Shown: piece by piece, positions 21,590 through 43,505 of the stretch
Numbering within the stretch: position 1 is the stretch's first letter
Layout: every line of letters begins with the position of its first letter
Source: Methanofollis formosanus
GTDB lineage: Archaea > Halobacteriota > Methanomicrobia > Methanomicrobiales > Methanofollaceae
Assembly (NCBI RefSeq): GCF_019633745.1
Contig: NZ_CP037968.1
Coordinates: 558,001-622,000 of the forward strand
Reading direction: 5' to 3'
DNA: 64,000 nucleotides
Translations under genes and position numbers: made by a program
Notes under the pieces: model-generated
Seen by the model: the letters and a program-made list of their open reading frames with translations, nothing else
What the model was told of the DNA's origin: nothing
The model's database searches: none

Positions 21590-22369
21590 TTACCGCAGTC
21601 CCACCATCTCCCCCAGCGCCGCCATCGAGTCAATGATCGCATCGGGCGCTACCTTTGCGTTCTGCACCGCCTCCTCCCGATACTTCCCGGTCCTCACCAG
21701 GACCGCCTGCATCCCGGCATCTTTGGCCCCGCCGATGTCGGTGGCGATGTCGTCCCCGATCATGACCGCCTCCTCCGGAGCCACACCCATGTCGTCAAGG
21801 GCAAGGGTGAAGAAGGCTTTGGAGGGTTTCCCGACAAGATGGGCTCCGGTCCCGGCGGCGTACTCGAGGGCCGCCACATAGGGGCCGGCGGAGAGCATGA
21901 AGTCCGCCGCGCCCCGCCAGTAGCGGTCTTTCTCGAGGGCGATGAAAGCGGCACCGCCGAGGAGGAGGCGGAGGGCGCGGTTCATCGACTCATACGTGAA
22001 GTCGTCGCCGGCGTCCCCCACAACGACGAACCTGGCACCGTCCGCACCGAGCGGGATCCCGGCCGCCGAGAAGTCGGCGTGCACATCGCCGGTGGCGAGC
22101 AGAAAACACCGGCCGCCGCCGCGCTGTTCGATCTCCCGCACGGCCGCGAGCGCCGGGGTGAAGATGAAAGCTTCCGGGATCTCGTACCCCAGTTCCCTGA
22201 GCCTGGCCGCCAGCGAGGCGCGGGAGCGGCGAGTCGTGTTGGAGACGCACCTGAAGGGAACTCCGGCCTCCTGCAACGCGTTCACCGCCGCCGCCCCGCC
22301 GGGAACCGGCACGCCGGCGACATGGAGCACCCCTTCGATATCGAGCAGCACCGCCTTTGCGTCGATCAT
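21590..22369 (-). CDS. HAD-superfamily phosphatase, NagD/LHPP-like
   Basis: This 259-residue protein has the HAD motifs. Motif I is LLDIEGVLHVAG; the second aspartate of the usual DxD pair is a glutamate-glycine here, as in the TIGR01458 subgroup related to LHPP. Motif II is RCVSNTTRRS, motif III includes GKPSKAFF and motif IV is MIGDDIATDIGGAKDAGM. A C2-type cap lies between II and III. The family removes phosphate from small molecules; the substrate is unknown. The ATG at 22369 follows GAAGGACG and lies immediately before motif I, so the longer frame is discarded. It is divergent from the NYN gene. Confidence 0.82.
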   Translation of the reverse strand: MIDAKAVLLDIEGVLHVAGVPVPGGAAAVNALQEAGVPFRCVSNTTRRSRASLAARLRELGYEIPEAFIFTPALAAVREIEQRGGGRCFLLATGDVHADFSAAGIPLGADGARFVVVGDAGDDFTYESMNRALRLLLGGAAFIALEKDRYWRGAADFMLSAGPYVAALEYAAGTGAHLVGKPSKAFFTLALDDMGVAPEEAVMIGDDIATDIGGAKDAGMQAVLVRTGKYREEAVQNAKVAPDAIIDSMAALGEMVGLR

Positions 22370-22511
22370 CGTCCTTCGATCGGCACAGGAGATAAAAAAA
22401 ACCATATCCTTCCACACCCGGTCCGGGGCACCGGAAGTCAGTCGCGGATCAATCCCTCCTGCTATGATATCGAGATGTTTATATGCACCAATACATCTAT
22501 TCCCTGTTGGA

Positions 22512-23594
22512 ATGGATACCAAATCAGATTCAATCGCACTTTTCATCGATTTTGACAATATCGAGATCGGGATTAAGCGAGAATATAACCGAAATTTCTC
22601 CATCGGACCGATTATAAAAGAACTCTCAGAGAGGGGCACCGTCGTCGTCAGGAGGGCGTACGGCGACTGGGTATCTTATCAGACCTATCGCGAAGGTCTC
22701 ATCGAACACGGGATCGAACTGATCGAACGGACCGTCATCACCAACAGCGGAAAGAATGGTGCGGACATTAAGATCGCCATCGACGCCGTCGACCTGGCCC
22801 TGAAGAACGACTTCATCAGTACTTTTGCGATCGTATCCGGAGACAGCGATTTTCTCCCGCTCATCCAGAAGTTGAGAGAATATGGCAAATATGTGACGGT
22901 GATCAGCGGGGACGGTTTTACCAGTCCGTTTATTATGAAAAATTGCGACAAGTTCATCTCATACGAGACGATCGCCGGGATCGAGAAACCCCATGAACAG
23001 AAGAAGAAGTTGAAAGATGCGATCGAACTGCTCGAGAAGGTCATCCTCTCCAGGGTCGACGAAGGACGGGGACTGCACCTGGCCGCGATCAAGAACCAGA
23101 TGCTCAGACTCGATCCTTCATTCAACGAGAAGTCCTACGGCTTTTCCAATTTTGGAACATTTATCCGGTACATCGGCGACGAGTGTCTCCTCCCGATAAA
23201 AATCCACTCCAGGGACAGCGGAGACTGGTACCTCGACTACTTCTCCGACGACGACGAGATGATCACCTCAGAGGAATATCAGCAGCGCGAACCCAATATC
23301 CTGGAATGGGAGGTCATTTTCGAGACGATAGAACGGTGTTTCCACGAGGGCGAGGGCAAGTATACCCAGGGATGGTATCAGTACCTCATCGCATACCTGA
23401 CGCAGCAGAGGCGGGAAGGAAAGATCGGTCTGGACCAGAGCAGTCTGCGGGCGGCACTCCACCGTCTCGTCGACTCGGGTATATTGATCCGGAAAAACCC
23501 GGAGAAAAGCCTTGAGAAATCGGTGTTTCAACTGTCCGGGATCTATGCACAGAAAAAGGCGGCATTCATGGACGATCTCTCTCGCGGCCCCTGA
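22512..23594 (+). CDS. NYN-domain nuclease-like protein with OST-HTH/LOTUS region
   Basis: The product has 360 residues. Residues 1-165 form a NYN/LabA (PIN-like) domain with acidic residues in ALFIDFDNIEIG, GADIKIAIDAVDLAL and FAIVSGDSDFLPLI, which is the metal-dependent ribonuclease pattern. Residues about 175-250 (LKDAIELLEKVILS...GLHLAAIKNQMLRLDPSFN...YGFSNFGTFI) resemble an OST-HTH/LOTUS RNA-binding domain. A second winged-helix-like region follows. The ATG at 22512 is chosen because the NYN fold begins there and TTTATATGC (about 22478-22487) lies 27 bases before it, giving a leaderless transcript. It probably cleaves or binds RNA, which is inference. Confidence 0.85.
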   Translation: MDTKSDSIALFIDFDNIEIGIKREYNRNFSIGPIIKELSERGTVVVRRAYGDWVSYQTYREGLIEHGIELIERTVITNSGKNGADIKIAIDAVDLALKNDFISTFAIVSGDSDFLPLIQKLREYGKYVTVISGDGFTSPFIMKNCDKFISYETIAGIEKPHEQKKKLKDAIELLEKVILSRVDEGRGLHLAAIKNQMLRLDPSFNEKSYGFSNFGTFIRYIGDECLLPIKIHSRDSGDWYLDYFSDDDEMITSEEYQQREPNILEWEVIFETIERCFHEGEGKYTQGWYQYLIAYLTQQRREGKIGLDQSSLRAALHRLVDSGILIRKNPEKSLEKSVFQLSGIYAQKKAAFMDDLSRGP

Positions 23595-27318: not shown

Positions 27319-28341
27319 TTAGATCAACCCGCGGCACGCGAGGAAGTAGGCCATCAGGGTCTCGAGTCCCCAGATGTACTCGGCGGCGTCGACCGAACGG
27401 ATCTGTCCACTGATCTCTCTCACCCGTCGATGGTCCTCCTCCCACTCTTCCATAAGCCGTTCCTCCACGTTTGCATCCCTGAGATAGGAGAGGAAGGCTG
27501 CATCGTCACCCGAGGCGCGGTGGGCGGCGATGTCGGCAGGCGTGATGAGCCCGTAGGCCAGCGCCCAGCTCATCACCCCGGAGGAGTAGTCGCCTTCCCC
27601 GACCTCCCGCTCCCAGGTGCCGACCCAGTTGCCGATCCTGACCATCTGCTGACCGTACCAGACCAGTTCCCTGAGATAGGGGAGGTCTTCCTTCCTGAGG
27701 GCAGGCGAGTACAGGACGTCCACCGTCCCGCAGATGTAGATGGTCATGTTGTGCGAGTTGTAGGAGAGGTTCTCGGCATGGCTGATCGCCTCGGGGTGCC
27801 GGTTGATGAGATAGGCGTACCTGAACGAGTTCCAGGTCTGGACAAGATCGAAGAAGAAGAGGTCGCCGAACTCGGCCCAGCGCGGCGCCGCTTCCACCCT
27901 GGCATAGATCTCGTCGAAGAGCGCGGCGAGGTAGCGGACCCGGCGCGCCTCTTCGGGCTTCAGGTCGCCCGGCACCTGCAGGTCGTCGCGCCTGAACGGG
28001 ACCTGGAGCATCACCTCAAGCAGCCGCCGGTTCTGATGCCGGTCGGAGACGTCGTCGGTCACCGTCGTGGCCAGGATGATGAAGAGTTTGACCAGCGCCG
28101 CATCCCGGCGGCATGCCGGGGGGACAGAGGAGAAACCGAAGGCCGGATCCTCCTCGTACAGGATCTTCCAGCACCACTGCCAGAGAAACCGGTTCCGTTC
28201 ACCGAAGTGTTCCTCATATTCGGGGAGGACGGCCACAAATTCTTCCGGGAGTTCGACCGCCGCGATCCCCTCCCTCAACAAGCCTTTCTCGGCGTCTGCA
28301 TAGGTGCAGACCGCACTGATTACCGTCTCGTTCTCGAGCAT
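27319..28341 (-). CDS. class I terpene synthase-like protein
   Basis: This 340-residue all-helical protein is soluble. Two signatures of class I terpene synthases are in the expected places. The aspartate-rich motif DDVSD lies at 96-100 (in TTVTDDVSDRH) and an NxxxTxxxE triad (NWVGTWERE) at 238-246. Both bind Mg2+-diphosphate, and their distance of about 140 residues fits bacterial terpene cyclases of similar length. Aromatic residues are abundant. The ATG at 28341 is fixed by a strong ribosome site, GGAGGTG, 5 bases upstream; the longer frame is rejected. The neighbouring PHP and geranylgeranyl-reductase-like genes suggest isoprenoid chemistry. The product is unknown, and it could instead be a prenyltransferase-like enzyme. 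Confidence 0.68.
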   Translation of the reverse strand: MLENETVISAVCTYADAEKGLLREGIAAVELPEEFVAVLPEYEEHFGERNRFLWQWCWKILYEEDPAFGFSSVPPACRRDAALVKLFIILATTVTDDVSDRHQNRRLLEVMLQVPFRRDDLQVPGDLKPEEARRVRYLAALFDEIYARVEAAPRWAEFGDLFFFDLVQTWNSFRYAYLINRHPEAISHAENLSYNSHNMTIYICGTVDVLYSPALRKEDLPYLRELVWYGQQMVRIGNWVGTWEREVGEGDYSSGVMSWALAYGLITPADIAAHRASGDDAAFLSYLRDANVEERLMEEWEEDHRRVREISGQIRSVDAAEYIWGLETLMAYFLACRGLI

Positions 28342-28437
28342 CTCAGCACCTCCTGACCAGACCGGGGCCGGAAAGAGGTCGGGGGGGTCCGGACCGTCGG
28401 GACGCAGGCACTCGGTCTGGATCCTGATCATATCGTC

Positions 28438-28456
28438 CGCACTATAAATATATTTG
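28438..28456 (-). promoter_or_regulatory. TATA box of the terpene-synthase-like gene
   Basis: ATATATTTATAGTG on the minus strand (about 28440-28453) is a strong archaeal TATA box. It predicts a transcript start near 28420 and a leader of about 80 bases before the GGAGGTG ribosome site, so this gene can be expressed separately from the PHP gene upstream. Confidence 0.6.
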
Positions 28457-28474
28457 TAAAATAATATATCCCAT

Positions 28475-29245
28475 TTAATGTTCCATTCCTGATTCCAAAC
28501 GGGCGAGAATCTGCTGATCCCCCGGAAGAAGGCCGGCACGCTTCACGGCCTTCACCGCCCGCGAGACCGTATGCACTGCCGGGTTGGTGACCCTGAAATG
28601 GATTGTCCCTTCCCTGAGGTGGGCAAGGAGGTCTTTCGGTCCATCGAAGGGTTCGAGTTCGACGAAAGTTCGGCAGAGTTCGAAGGGAAGATGTGCGTCC
28701 GAACCGGCGGAGAGCATTTTATTGTGGGTCATGGCGTATGTCTCTGCCGTGCCGTTCGCCTCCGGCGAGACGTTCCTGGCATTGTAGCCCTCGATGATAT
28801 CGACCCGGCCGATGACCTCATCCAGGGCGCGCCTCTCGATGGCGCTCGACCTGAAGGTGCAGAAGGGGTGGGGGACGATCGAGATGGCGCCCTGCTCCCT
28901 GATCAGGTCGACGGTCTCGGCGGCGGAGAGACCAGGGGGGATCTCCTCGGTGAGGAAGGCGCCGATCACCTCCCCCTCGGCCGTCGAGATCTCCTCGGCA
29001 CGGATGAAAGGTACGTCGGGGTCGACCGCTCTGATCCGGCGGTAGACCTCTTCGGAGCCGCGGACGGTGTCGTGGTCGCAGACCAGGGCAAGGACCCGGC
29101 GTGTCTGCCATGCCCGGACGACGGCGTCGGTCCCGACGACGGCATCAGGCGAGTAAGAGGTGTGGACATGCATGTCAAGCCTGGCGCGTCCAGCGTCTGC
29201 AGCGGTCGTCTGAACGCGATCAACCGGCCCGTTCCACAATGACAT
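28475..29245 (-). CDS. PHP-domain phosphoesterase
   Basis: The product is a 256-residue PHP (polymerase and histidinol phosphatase) family hydrolase. The metal-binding residues appear in DMHVHTSYSPDAV (HxH), VCDHDTVRG, the glutamate of IRAEEIS, IVPHPF and SAGSDAHLP. Such stand-alone proteins hydrolyse phosphate mono- or diesters; the substrate is unknown. A TATA box lies 26 bases before the ATG at 29245, so the transcript is leaderless. The terpene-synthase-like gene follows on the same strand, and a flavoprotein gene is divergent. Confidence 0.85.
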   Translation of the reverse strand: MSLWNGPVDRVQTTAADAGRARLDMHVHTSYSPDAVVGTDAVVRAWQTRRVLALVCDHDTVRGSEEVYRRIRAVDPDVPFIRAEEISTAEGEVIGAFLTEEIPPGLSAAETVDLIREQGAISIVPHPFCTFRSSAIERRALDEVIGRVDIIEGYNARNVSPEANGTAETYAMTHNKMLSAGSDAHLPFELCRTFVELEPFDGPKDLLAHLREGTIHFRVTNPAVHTVSRAVKAVKRAGLLPGDQQILARLESGMEH

Positions 29246-29265
29246 GAATAGAAATCATGGCCCCC

Positions 29266-29317
29266 AAATTATAGAGGTGCCCGATGGATCTTCTGGGGCC
29301 CTCTATAAAATATAGAG
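29266..29317. promoter_or_regulatory. divergent promoter pair with palindromic TATA
   Basis: The minus-strand TATA (CCTCTATAATTT, 29266-29277) serves the PHP gene. The plus-strand TATA is embedded in a perfect palindrome, CTCTATA-AAA-TATAGAG (29301-29317), about 40 bases before the flavoprotein ATG. Both boxes share the sequence CCTCTATAA, so a common regulator or simple promoter similarity is possible. Confidence 0.55.
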
Positions 29318-29347
29318 TTCGCGGCGACGTTCGACCGCCACCTGTAT

Positions 29348-30445
29348 ATGCCAGGAATGGCAGGATCACCCCCTATGGATATGATCCGGATCCTGGGTGC
29401 AGGCCCGGCCGGGCTCTCCTCGGCCATCGCCCTGGCGAAGGCAGGGTTCGATGTAGAGGTGTACGAAAGGCGGAGAGACGTCGGGATGCGCTTCAGGGGC
29501 GACCTTCAGGGCCTGGAAAACTGGTCGGATGCCACTGACGTCATCGAACGTCTCGGGGAGATCGGAATCAGGCCTACGTTCGAGCACCGCCCCTACCCCC
29601 GTCTCTCGGTCTCAGACGGCCGGGAGGTGCTCTCCTTTGCCTGTCAGAAGCCGGCCTTCTATCTGGTCAGGCGGGGTAACGAACCCGGCAGTCTCGACCA
29701 CGCCCTCAAAGAGCAGGCTCTCGATGCCGGGGCCGAGATCAGGTTCAATGAATCCATCCCGGTGGAGAAAGCCGACATCGTGGCCACCGGTCCCGACAGG
29801 CGGGGCGTGCATGCCGTCGCGAAAGGCTACACCTTCTCGACCTCGATGGACGACCTGGCTTACGGGCTTATCAACACCACCGCATCCAGGAATGGGTATG
29901 CCTATCTCCTCGTGATGAACGGCCGCGGCTGCCTCTGCACGATGCTGACCAGGTGCTTCGACGAGGCAGGGGCCTGTCTGGCCGAGGCCGAACAGGCCTT
30001 CTCCGAACTCGTCGACCTGGAGGTCCGGGAGCCAAAGCCCTGCGGCGGAGTGGGGAGATTTGTCCTGCCGCCGCACTTCCAGGTCCAGAGGAGACGGTAC
30101 GCCGGGGAAGCGGCCGGCCTCCAGGATCCCTTCTGGGGATTCGGGATCCTGTATGCCGTCAGGTCTGGCCGCCTCGCTGCCGAGAGCATCATCAAGGACT
30201 TCGACTACGGCCACGCGGCAGAGGAAGCCTTCGGCGATATGCTGAAAGCCGGCGTGGTCAACCGCTACCTCTGGGACCGGTATGGTCTGGAGAACTATGC
30301 CGGGATCTACCGGCGACTGAGAGGGGTGAAGGATCCGTTGCCGTACCTCCGTTCATTCTACACCTTCAACACCTACCAGAGGCTGCTGTACCGTAAGGCC
30401 GGACGGCACATGGAGGTGCGCTACGGGAAGGTGCCTGTAGCATGA
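29348..30445 (+). CDS. FAD-dependent oxidoreductase, geranylgeranyl reductase-like
   Basis: The product has about 365 residues. The N-terminus has the FAD dinucleotide fold RILGAGPAGLSSAIALAKAG with the downstream acidic VEVYERR. The middle part VATGPDRRGVHAVAKGYTF and the late GFGILYAVRSGRLAAESI segment match the geranylgeranyl reductase/p-hydroxybenzoate hydroxylase superfamily. In archaea these enzymes saturate geranylgeranyl chains of lipids or modify other isoprenoids. The start is uncertain: ATGs at 29348, 29375 and 29381 all precede the Rossmann loop, and the TATA spacing favours the first. It is divergent from the PHP and terpene-synthase-like genes. Confidence 0.8.
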   Translation: MPGMAGSPPMDMIRILGAGPAGLSSAIALAKAGFDVEVYERRRDVGMRFRGDLQGLENWSDATDVIERLGEIGIRPTFEHRPYPRLSVSDGREVLSFACQKPAFYLVRRGNEPGSLDHALKEQALDAGAEIRFNESIPVEKADIVATGPDRRGVHAVAKGYTFSTSMDDLAYGLINTTASRNGYAYLLVMNGRGCLCTMLTRCFDEAGACLAEAEQAFSELVDLEVREPKPCGGVGRFVLPPHFQVQRRRYAGEAAGLQDPFWGFGILYAVRSGRLAAESIIKDFDYGHAAEEAFGDMLKAGVVNRYLWDRYGLENYAGIYRRLRGVKDPLPYLRSFYTFNTYQRLLYRKAGRHMEVRYGKVPVA

Positions 30446-36808: not shown

Positions 36809-38815
36809 TCACTCCAGTTTGAACCCTTCCACCTTCTCCCTGAGGCGGGTGACCATCTCGGCGACTTCCTGGGCGCCGCTCCCGACCTCCTGGGCCGAGG
36901 CCGATACTTCTTCGGTGAGGGCGGCCATGTCCTCGATGTTGTGCATGTTCTCCTGGGTCATGCCCCTCGTCTCGGCCACCCTCTCGGTGACGCGGTTGGT
37001 GTTGCTGGCCTGGTCTTCGGTGGCCCTGGCGATCTCGGTCACGTTCTCCTTGACCTCCTTCGACATCATGACCAGGTGGTTGAGGGCCTCGAGTGTCTTG
37101 TCGACGCTGGCAATCCCCGAGTTGATCTCGGCGTAGACCCCTTCCATGTCCCTGGCCGTCATCTCGGTCTGGCCCTGGATGGTGGTGATCAGTCCCTCGA
37201 TGTGGCTGGTCGCCTTCTTTGACTCGCCGGCAAGGTTCCGCACTTCACCCGCGACGACGGCAAAGCCGCGGCCGTGTTCGCCGGCCCTGGCCGCCTCGAT
37301 CGCGGCGTTGAGCGCGAGCAGGTTGGTCTGGTTGGAGATGTCGGTGATCAACTTGACGATCTTGTCGATCTCCTGCATCTGGGAATTGAGTTTGCCGATC
37401 TCCCCCACCGCCCGCTGGGCGATGGTCACGACCGCCTGCATCTTCTGGGTCGCTTCCTCACCGAGGTTTTTGGCCTGTTCGCCGACTTCGGCCCCGTTCT
37501 CGGTGGTATGGAGCACCTCCTGGCAGGTGCTGGCGATCTCCTCGACCGATGCCGAGAGGTCGGACATCGCCCGTGCGGCGTCCTCGATGTTGTCGAGCTG
37601 TTTTTTGGAGTCGTCCGACGTCTTCTGGCTCTTGATCGCTACCTGCTCGATCGCCTTGGCGATCTCCTCGGCGCTCTTGCTCGTCTCGTCGGTGTTGGAA
37701 TCAACGTCCTTGATGGCTATGATGATGTCGCTCATCAGGTCGGTTATGGCACTCCGGGTGTCAAGGAAATCTTGCTTCAGTTTCAGGAGAGGATCGTCCT
37801 TGTGAATTTTAAGAGCAGCGGTGAGGTCCCTCTTTGTCATGGCTTCGAGGGCCACCTCCAGTTCACCTGCACTCTCTTCAAGCCAGCGTGCGTTATCTTT
37901 CGCCTGCTTCTCCTGTTCCTTGATGACGGTGATGTCCTGGACGATCTCGATGTGCCCGGCCCTCTGGCCCACCGCGTCTTTGAGATAGGCACAGTAAAGC
38001 TGGAAGTTCTCCTCACCGACGTCAAAGTAGGTGGTGATCGCGTCCTTCCCGCTTTTCTGGAGTTGTTTGATGCCACAGCCGTCGTTGTGGCAGAGCGGGC
38101 CGTTCGTGGCGCTGCAGTGCCGGCCGATCTGGTGGTCGCGATCGAGGCTGAAGGATTCCGCGAAGGCGGTATTCATCGCCGTCCAGTTCATCGCCATGTC
38201 GGTGACGGTGATCGGGTACGGGACGGCGTCCATGATCTCTTGATACCACTGGGCCTTCGCTTCTGCCTCCTCGGCAATTTTTTCAGCCCGCGCCTGCTCT
38301 TCGTCCGCCGCGGTGGTGTCGACGAGGACGAGGAGGATACCCTCAACTTTCCCATCTTCGTCAAGGAAGGGGATGCTGTACTCGAGGGCGCGCTTCACCC
38401 CGACAGGATATTCGACCACCGTCCTGGAGACTCCCCGCGTCTTCTTCCTGAGGGTGTCGCTGAGGCCGTCCCCTTCCTGTTCGAGGATTGTGAAGTCCTC
38501 GGCATGTATTCCGACGACCTCGTCGTGACTCATCCCGCTGAACTCTTCGAAGGCCTTGTTGCCGTTGACGACATTGCAATCGGCGTCCAGGTAGAGCATG
38601 GGCACCGGGTTCTCGGCGACGGTCCGGGTGTAATTCTTCAGACTGAGAGTGAGTTCCTCGTTCTCTTCTTCCTTCGTCTGCAGTTTCCCGATCAGTTCGT
38701 TCACTGCCGCTGCGATGGGCCTGATCTCTGCGTCACACTGTTCTTCATCGAGGGTCTGTGAAAAATCCCCGTTCAGTGCTCTTGATATGGTTTTGGTAAT
38801 CTCTGTAATCTCCAT
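36809..38815 (-). CDS. cytoplasmic methyl-accepting chemotaxis protein with two PAS domains
   Basis: This 668-residue receptor has no membrane segment, so it senses an internal signal. Residues 1-50 resemble a HAMP-like linker. PAS domains follow at about 60-165 ([27 protein letters not shown]) and about 190-300. The second PAS contains three closely spaced cysteines in [19 protein letters not shown], a possible metal or redox site. Residues about 380-660 form the long signalling coiled coil with the hairpin tip [41 protein letters not shown], the CheA/CheW contact region. The cognate CheW is encoded directly downstream. Confidence 0.93.
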
Positions 38816-41051: not shown

Positions 41052-43364
41052 TCATACTCCGCCCGGCGAGGAGGCCGGGTCGCCCTGATCGGTCCCGGCC
41101 TCCAGTTCCTTCTTCCCGCCGCCGACGATCGCGAGGGCCGCGGGCATGATGATGATCGCCCCGACCAGCGAGAACCCGACGGCGATGACCGTCGTGATCC
41201 CGAAGTTCGCGATGATCTGGAAGTTCGAGAGGACCAGGGCCGAGAAACCGCACGCGGTCACGAGGGCCGAGACCGTCACCGCGGTCCCGACCTTCTGGAC
41301 GCCCTCACGGATCGCCCGTTGCGGATCGCCGTGCTCACGGATCTCCTCGCCGTAGCGCTCCATCATCAGGATGGTGTATTCGGACGCCACCCCGATGGTC
41401 ATCGACCCCAGACAGGCGGTCATGGGGGTGTAGTTGATTCCCATCAGGAGCATCCCGACGGCGTTCCATCCCACGATACAGACGAGCGGGATGATCGGGG
41501 AGATCGCGTATCTCTTCCGGTACACCAGGACCAGGTAGGCGAAGATGAGCGCGAACCCGAGGTACGTCATCTGCTCCTTGCTTGTGGCGATGTTCGCGAT
41601 GAGCGAGGTGAACATGTCATAGTCCCCGGTCGGGTCCACCTCGATCCCTGGCGGCGGACGCATCCACCCGACGTCGGCCATCACTTCCTTCTTGACCCGG
41701 TCCTGGGCACCCATCTGCATATCGATGGTCGCAAAGTCGATGACCCCGGCGGTGTGCCCGGAGAGGTAGCCCTTCAGTTCGTCGTCGGGCACCCGGGCAA
41801 GGGCGGCGTCGATGCCGGCCTGATCGGTGGGGAGGACGCCGCCGTTGTATTTCTTGATCAACGTCGCCGCACTCGTCACCCCGGTCAGTTCGGCGTGGCG
41901 GGAGAGTTCATAGTCCCCGAACCGGTCCATCCAGACGACGGTCTCGTAGTCGTCCACCCCCTCGCCCTGGAGCAGGAGCGGGAGGGGCCGCACCGACCCG
42001 ACCAGACCGGTCACCTCGTTGAGGGAGAGTTTGGTCGGCATCTCTGGTGGGACAAAGGTGTTCTGGTTGGTGTCGATCGGGATCGAGGAGTCGACGACCA
42101 CGCCGCCGTAGGCGACGAGGGCGGCGACGAGGAGGACCGGGACCGGATGTTTTGCGATCCGCCCGGCCGTCCTCGAGAGGAGAGAATCATACCGCTCCTT
42201 CATCTCCACCCCTCGCCCTGCCGCTGCGGGCTTCGGCCGGTAGTCCCTGAGAAGGGCGTAGGCCGGGAGGCCGAGGAGAGTCACTCCGTAGCAACAGGCG
42301 ATCCCGATGAGACTGACGATCCCGAAGGACTTGACCATCGGGACCGGCGAGATGAACATCGCGATGAACCCCATGCCGGTGGCGGCCATCGCCACCAGGA
42401 CGGCCGGGCCGGTGCGGACGAGGGTGGTGCGCACGGCCTCAGGCAGAGGCGAGCGACGACACTCCTCGTCCAGACGGGCCTGGAACTGGATCGCATAGTC
42501 GATCCCGAGGCCCAGGAGCACCGGGAAGGCCGCCACCACCCCGATGTTGAGGTTGATCCCGGTAAAGCCCATCACCCCGAAGGTGAGGATCATCCCGACG
42601 GCCACCAGGAGGGCCGGGAGGAGGCGGTGGCTCATCGAGGAGAAGAGGACGGCGAGGGTGATGGCCATCAACCCCATCGCCGCGGCGATGAGCACCGCCA
42701 GCGAAGCGGTGAGTTCGTCTTCCATCTGCTCGTCGAAGGCGGTGTTCCCGGTCACCTCGATCGAGACGCCGGGCGGCGGCGACTCGCTCTCGATCACTGC
42801 CTGGACGCTGTGGAGCACGCCGCGCGAGACGTCGGTCGAGACCCCTTGCTCGACATCGACGAGAACGAGCGTGAGGATGTTCGAGGGGAGGAGTTGTGCC
42901 CTGAGGTCGGGCGGGAGGTGACCGAGAAGCATCTCGGCCTCGGCCCGCGACGCAGGGAGACGGCCGTGGTTGAGGGCCTTGAGCACGTCGGGGAGGGCCT
43001 CGGCCCGCGACGCAGGGAGACGGCCGTGGTTGAGGGCCTTGAGCACGTCGGGGAGGGCCTCGACCGATTCGACATGGCGGACCTCGCGCACCTCGGTCTC
43101 CAGACGGTCCAGGAACCCGAGGAACTCGGGGTCGAGGGGATCGTCGCACTTGACCAGGAGGACGGCGCTGTCTGAGAGGAAGCGTTCGGTATAACTGTCA
43201 TAGAGTACCCCTTCCCGCGTCGACTTGTCGAGATAGGTGTCAGAACCGGTCTCCATCGAGACGCCGGTCATCCCGACGAGGCCGAGCAGGAAGAGGAAGA
43301 GAAGGGCCAGGGCTACCTGGCGGGGGTAGCCGACGAGGACCGAGGCCACTCGTTCAAAGAACAT
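41052..43364 (-). CDS. RND/MMPL family exporter (HAE3-like)
   Basis: This 770-residue, 12-helix protein is organised as two repeats of one helix, a large exported loop and five helices. The archaeal hydrophobe/amphiphile efflux-3 group and the MMPL/hopanoid exporter family have this layout. Landmarks are the proton-relay region GLGIDYAIQFQARLDEE in the first half and the equivalent GVASEYTILMMERYGEE in the second. The ATG at 43364 follows GGGAGGGACC; an upstream in-frame start is rejected. The first exported loop contains an exact 20-residue tandem duplication. Substrates are probably lipids or hydrophobic compounds, which is inference. Confidence 0.88.
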   Translation of the reverse strand: MFFERVASVLVGYPRQVALALLFLFLLGLVGMTGVSMETGSDTYLDKSTREGVLYDSYTERFLSDSAVLLVKCDDPLDPEFLGFLDRLETEVREVRHVESVEALPDVLKALNHGRLPASRAEALPDVLKALNHGRLPASRAEAEMLLGHLPPDLRAQLLPSNILTLVLVDVEQGVSTDVSRGVLHSVQAVIESESPPPGVSIEVTGNTAFDEQMEDELTASLAVLIAAAMGLMAITLAVLFSSMSHRLLPALLVAVGMILTFGVMGFTGINLNIGVVAAFPVLLGLGIDYAIQFQARLDEECRRSPLPEAVRTTLVRTGPAVLVAMAATGMGFIAMFISPVPMVKSFGIVSLIGIACCYGVTLLGLPAYALLRDYRPKPAAAGRGVEMKERYDSLLSRTAGRIAKHPVPVLLVAALVAYGGVVVDSSIPIDTNQNTFVPPEMPTKLSLNEVTGLVGSVRPLPLLLQGEGVDDYETVVWMDRFGDYELSRHAELTGVTSAATLIKKYNGGVLPTDQAGIDAALARVPDDELKGYLSGHTAGVIDFATIDMQMGAQDRVKKEVMADVGWMRPPPGIEVDPTGDYDMFTSLIANIATSKEQMTYLGFALIFAYLVLVYRKRYAISPIIPLVCIVGWNAVGMLLMGINYTPMTACLGSMTIGVASEYTILMMERYGEEIREHGDPQRAIREGVQKVGTAVTVSALVTACGFSALVLSNFQIIANFGITTVIAVGFSLVGAIIIMPAALAIVGGGKKELEAGTDQGDPASSPGGV
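42941..43060. repeat. exact 60-bp tandem duplication inside the exporter gene
   Basis: The unit at 42941-43000 is repeated base for base at 43001-43060. It is in frame and duplicates 20 residues (EALPDVLKALNHGRLPASRA) in the first exported loop. Perfect identity means a recent event, or an assembly or culture variant. Confidence 0.97.
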
Positions 43365-43505
43365 GGTCCCTCCCTGGGGACGAAACTCTGTGTTCACATC
43401 GCCCGGTCATGATATTCACTACAAATCTTTCTTCTCACGGGCGTATTCATTTTTCGAAGAACCGTGCCCTGCAAGAGGGAGGAGGCGGCCGACCGCCAGA
43501 CTGAT

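Follow-up and report, generated by a model that had tools for sequence, protein, structure and literature searches.

The window, the whole stretch of 64,000 nucleotides analysed from Methanofollis formosanus (NZ_CP037968.1, positions 558,001 to 622,000), carries on its minus strand at 27319-28341 a class I terpene-synthase-like gene, recognized by its open reading frame, by homology and by purifying selection. The encoded protein (P0001) has 340 residues when translation starts at the ATG common to the homologues; a longer reading of the frame with 406 residues was dropped, as the homologues use the start of the 340-residue frame. The Asp-rich metal motif DDVSD (residues 96-100) is encoded at 28042..28056 and the NSE-type metal motif NWVGTWERE (residues 238-246) at 27604..27630, both on the minus strand, and the length of the protein and the places of the two motifs are as given in a preliminary description of this DNA. 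Across the four clade A Methanofollis synthase genes (see below) the dN/dS ratio is 0.04-0.09, and the synthase protein is therefore under strong constraint by purifying selection. Upstream of the synthase gene, on the same strand and after a gap of 133 bp, lies a PHP-domain phosphoesterase-like gene (28475-29245; PHP_C, 7e-10), and a divergent gene on the plus strand (29348-30445) encodes an FAD oxidoreductase distantly like geranylgeranyl reductases; both neighbours are present as first described. Elsewhere in the window, a gene at 21942-23594 encodes a protein with an NYN domain and an OST-HTH/LOTUS domain, a possible RNA nuclease, and a gene at 41055-43397 encodes an MMPL/RND-type transporter with a sterol-sensing-domain match.

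Family membership and distribution

P0001 matches the Pfam family Terpene_syn_C_2 (PF19086) with 21.2 bits (E 4e-4), which is 2.5 bits under the cut-off of 23.7. The same model matched 20 of the 20 family members tested, with a best value of 2.3e-8 and several members above the cut-off, and two terpene synthase families were the only ones in Pfam to match several of these members. In the search with terpene cyclase models that had been proposed as a check, P0001 itself is just below the curated threshold. The PF19086 cut-off is exceeded in 10 of 393 genomes of the phylum, and the haloarchaeal proteins found by this model carry the same two motifs.

The synthase is present in seven of 12 Methanofollis genomes. 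Clade A consists of the window genome and three others, with synthases at 91-94% identity, while the three synthases of clade B are approximately 41% identical to P0001. None was found in 49 genomes of other genera of the same order. A contig scan with P0001 alone gave one close Methanofollis contig and nothing further; this contig, L010, encodes a protein 91% identical to P0001 and also belongs to one of the Methanofollis genomes counted above. When an alignment of 20 family members was used as a search profile, the synthase was detected in 120 of 391 Halobacteria genomes (about a third of the sampled haloarchaea) and in 39 of 86 genera, the class being taken as Halobacteria on grounds that include named haloarchaeal plasmid homologues. 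The phylum-wide profile search added two branches from family f8, presumably the Methanosarcinaceae: a close one (E 1e-109) and a distant one (E 1e-20 to 1e-27). In the phylogenetic tree the Methanofollis sequences form one group with full support, sister to the close methanosarcinal branch (99/98) and apart from the haloarchaea. Screening of viral contigs with the same alignment yielded no member. Locus L031, with a PF19086 match of 21 bits, was set aside; it contains no synthase frame and only a methyltransferase-like frame. At three loci of family f9 (L111, L112, L113) the synthase copies are shortened or frame-broken and look decayed or badly assembled. All six plasmid-borne haloarchaeal copies are annotated as 'hypothetical protein'. 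In a sister species (genome G005) the synthase gene is adjoined by a gene of 388 residues (L011:8320-9483) which, judged by eye, possibly encodes a transposon protein of the TnpB type.

Metal motifs, arginines and predicted fold

The distance from DDxx[DE] to N-x3-T-x2-R-E is 136-149 residues in 75 members and nearly always 140, in agreement with the earlier claim that the two motifs are spaced as the Asp-rich and NSE motifs of class I terpene cyclases. Among 47 non-redundant members D97, N238 and E246 are invariant, D96 and T242 are kept in 46 (Ser being the exception at 242), and R245 is kept in at least 46; one family member has Asn in place of D96, and position 100 is Asp or Glu across the family. 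The distant methanosarcinal branch still has D96, D97, N238, T242, W243 and E246, with Arg or Lys at 245, and the whole family including this branch also keeps R49, W56, K85, P153, D208, E249, D251 and D318. Since D96, D97, N238, T242, R245 and E246 are near-invariant, the conservation of the two motifs is, judged from the alignment, not a matter of chance, and the residues kept family-wide follow the pattern expected of metal ligands.

A diphosphate-sensor Arg 46 residues ahead of the NSE Asn is a hallmark of bacterial class I terpene synthases; plant ones do not require it. Ten Streptomyces synthases, whose sources include S. clavuligerus pCLA1 and two annotated genes, served as the yardstick: nine have an Arg at exactly this distance, and most have an RY pair close to the end. 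The Arg is present in seven of 44 archaeal sequences and absent from 37; P0001 has Leu at this position, and instead of the Arg a Y-x2-[HY]-N-M stretch is conserved around this region. On these alignments the archaeal family does not conserve the sensor Arg of the bacterial synthases. R235 and R224, three and 14 residues ahead of the NSE Asn, are invariant in the main branch, and the distant methanosarcinal branch is without both. The position of R235 is presumably that of the diphosphate-binding Arg of plant synthases such as tobacco 5-epi-aristolochene synthase. When the plant synthase AtTPS18 is aligned to the family profile, the NSE motifs coincide and RIGN falls on RLAN, a weak match (E 0.16) that supports this register. 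Given this plant-like placement, R235 probably takes over the role of the missing sensor Arg in the main branch. As a universal diphosphate binder R235 was rejected, for the distant methanosarcinal branch has Met at that position.

A profile-profile alignment with the Streptomyces synthases brings both metal motifs into register over 229 columns, although the match is weak (E 0.009 for a single comparison, probability 4.5%). A phmmer search of P0001 against PDB sequences returned only chance matches to glutamine synthetase. The structure model of P0001, built from two near-identical sequences and accordingly weak, is helical, with a poor mean pLDDT of 53 and a pTM of 0.53. The best 50 Foldseek matches of this model all have the isoprenoid-synthase fold, the best at E 0.028 and none reaching 0.001, and the matches listed by a second structural comparison are all terpene synthases, the best with Z 12.1 over 246 residues at an rmsd of 6.0. 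A Z of about 12 is attainable by chance among helical bundles, and the fold matches of this low-confidence model are therefore supporting and not decisive. In the comparison of structures suggested at the outset, the matches listed for this poor model are thus all of the expected fold. Neither a different fold nor a loss of the two motifs in homologues was encountered, and the class I terpene-synthase-like identity first proposed is supported by the Pfam matches in 20 of 20 members, by the motifs and by the fold matches.

Neighbouring genes

At 21 of 39 haloarchaeal loci a gene for a BAT protein, an HTH protein of the FilR1 type or a PAS kinase lies within 3 kb of the synthase gene, usually as the next gene. 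Matches to regulators and HalOD1 proteins at the 39 loci number 0.137 per kb near the synthase versus 0.026 per kb further out, a fivefold difference; the regulator query proteins were taken from five of these loci, a source of bias, and 16 of 34 loci are positive when the five are left out. Five of the six plasmid-borne copies lie beside PAS/BAT regulators, FilR1-type HTH proteins, PAS kinases and HalOD1 proteins. A PAS-kinase-like gene is located just upstream on the same strand at all six distant methanosarcinal loci (two were analysed for their domains, and the remaining four were assigned by their shared sequence start). At L103 a kinase with three PAS domains is found on one side of the synthase gene, and the long gene adjoining the synthase at L104 is similar-looking to this kinase. 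In the haloarchaeal genome G387 a single frame of 512 residues (L074:5742-7277) joins Response_reg, HalX and Terpene_syn_C_2. From these loci a part in signalling may tentatively be proposed for the family: its members would be synthases with a product that the adjacent PAS/BAT regulators control or sense, or else relay domains that derive from a synthase and bind prenyl diphosphates. However, a regulator neighbour is missing at about half of the haloarchaeal loci, including most of those of family f21, and the receiver fusion was seen only once. The Methanofollis window has no PAS/BAT-type regulator within approximately 6 kb of P0001; the closest PAS protein encountered, a PAS-MCP chemoreceptor (36812-38815), lies more than 8 kb away, and the link to regulators therefore does not hold for Methanofollis. 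The conserved metal ligands argue for catalysis, and signalling may describe how the enzyme is regulated, so that the two readings overlap. That the family works in signal transduction throughout the phylum, with PAS/BAT sensors or response regulators controlling or answering a small terpene of its making, and doing so in one case by way of the receiver fusion, seems rather doubtful; the Methanofollis copy as a branch that moved to other neighbours would be an equally speculative part of such a scheme.

The preliminary description had also suggested that the synthase could act together with the PHP phosphoesterase and the FAD enzyme in the making, trimming and reduction of an isoprenoid. The PHP gene matches PHP_C with 38.7 bits (cut-off 21.3) and the CehA/McbA metallohydrolase model with 48 bits, below the cut-off of 80. 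The FAD protein scores 47.3 bits against the geranylgeranyl reductase model TIGR02032, far under the cut-off of 158.8; its matches in the PDB are weak and of mixed kind. Two genes elsewhere in the genome pass the TIGR02032 cut-off and are thus available for the membrane lipids. The three genes occur together in four close Methanofollis species, and a close PHP orthologue is found only in these, where the clade A synthase is. The conservation of the trio does not extend to the three clade B genomes, in which the synthase is present and both partners are absent. FAD orthologues with 59-60% identity occur in G002, G004 and G006, all without a synthase, and inspection by eye of the stretches fetched around the orthologue in G002 and G004 revealed neither a synthase nor a PHP gene adjoining. 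At the haloarchaeal loci inspected, tblastn gave no match to the PHP or FAD protein. The linkage in four species notwithstanding, a common pathway of the three genes is improbable. Membership of the FAD gene in the pathway of the synthase is not supported by these comparisons; nor is the label 'terpenoid cluster', because the FAD protein falls far under its cut-off, its gene occurs elsewhere without a synthase, and the clade B synthases occur without the partners.

Proposed reaction and comparison with known systems

The most likely reading, given a probability of roughly 0.8, is that P0001 is a class I terpene-synthase-like enzyme dependent on metal ions and that its archaeal family extends across the Halobacteriota. 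In the proposed reaction D96, D97 and D100 together with N238, T242 and E246 would hold three Mg2+ about the diphosphate group of a prenyl substrate. This substrate would be farnesyl or geranylgeranyl diphosphate, supplied by the single polyprenyl synthase of the cell, whose gene is the only one of its kind in the genome and is separate from that of P0001. Removal of the diphosphate would leave a carbocation to be cyclised or quenched, yielding a small terpene hydrocarbon or alcohol, and the PHP and FAD genes would be dispensable. A different enzyme of the isoprenoid-synthase fold, a prenyl diphosphate synthase or a squalene/phytoene synthase, is very improbable: prenyl diphosphate synthases and dehydrosqualene synthases are among the Foldseek matches, but such enzymes have two Asp-rich motifs whereas the second motif of P0001 is of the NSE type, the repeated Pfam matches are to terpene synthases only, and the polyprenyl synthase of the genome is another gene.

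Archaeal membranes are built from isoprenoids, and to our knowledge hardly any small cyclic terpenes have been described in these organisms. The family represents a conserved and testable enzyme family in about a third of the sampled haloarchaea and in several methanogens, and its repeated pairing with PAS/BAT genes suggests that archaea signal by means of terpenes or place terpene production under the control of sensors. Among the papers covered by the literature search, none deals with this archaeal family, with its distribution or with the regulators beside it. Archaeal terpene synthases as such are not new: they are the subject of a preprint by Samusevich et al. (bioRxiv 10.1101/2024.01.29.577750), according to its title as cited in PMC12797696, and the expression of 'archaeal' terpene synthases from earlier work is reported in PMC13235557. 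The earlier remark that terpene cyclases are rarely described in methanogens is fair, with the reservation that these sources already concern archaeal synthases; the association with signalling was not found described. The synthases of Samusevich et al. share the archaeal origin with the present family, and terpene synthase activity is reported for archaeal enzymes.

P0001 resembles the bacterial-type synthases of PF19086 in its profile match (4-174 of 199), in its single domain of approximately 340 residues, and in the Asp-rich and NSE motifs at the canonical spacing of about 140; it differs in scoring under the curated cut-off and in having Trp in place of Asp at position two of the NSE motif. 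From the Streptomyces synthases the archaeal family differs in the Arg 46 residues ahead of the NSE Asn (nine of ten versus seven of 44). Compared with plant synthases, P0001 is without the plant-type N-terminal domain, an RxR motif was not identified in it, and the sequence similarity is weak. Plant class I synthases occupy the top rows of the second structural comparison with the weak model, and such synthases, for example AtTPS18 and tobacco 5-epi-aristolochene synthase, share with P0001 the Arg three residues ahead of the NSE Asn as well as the sequence directly after it.
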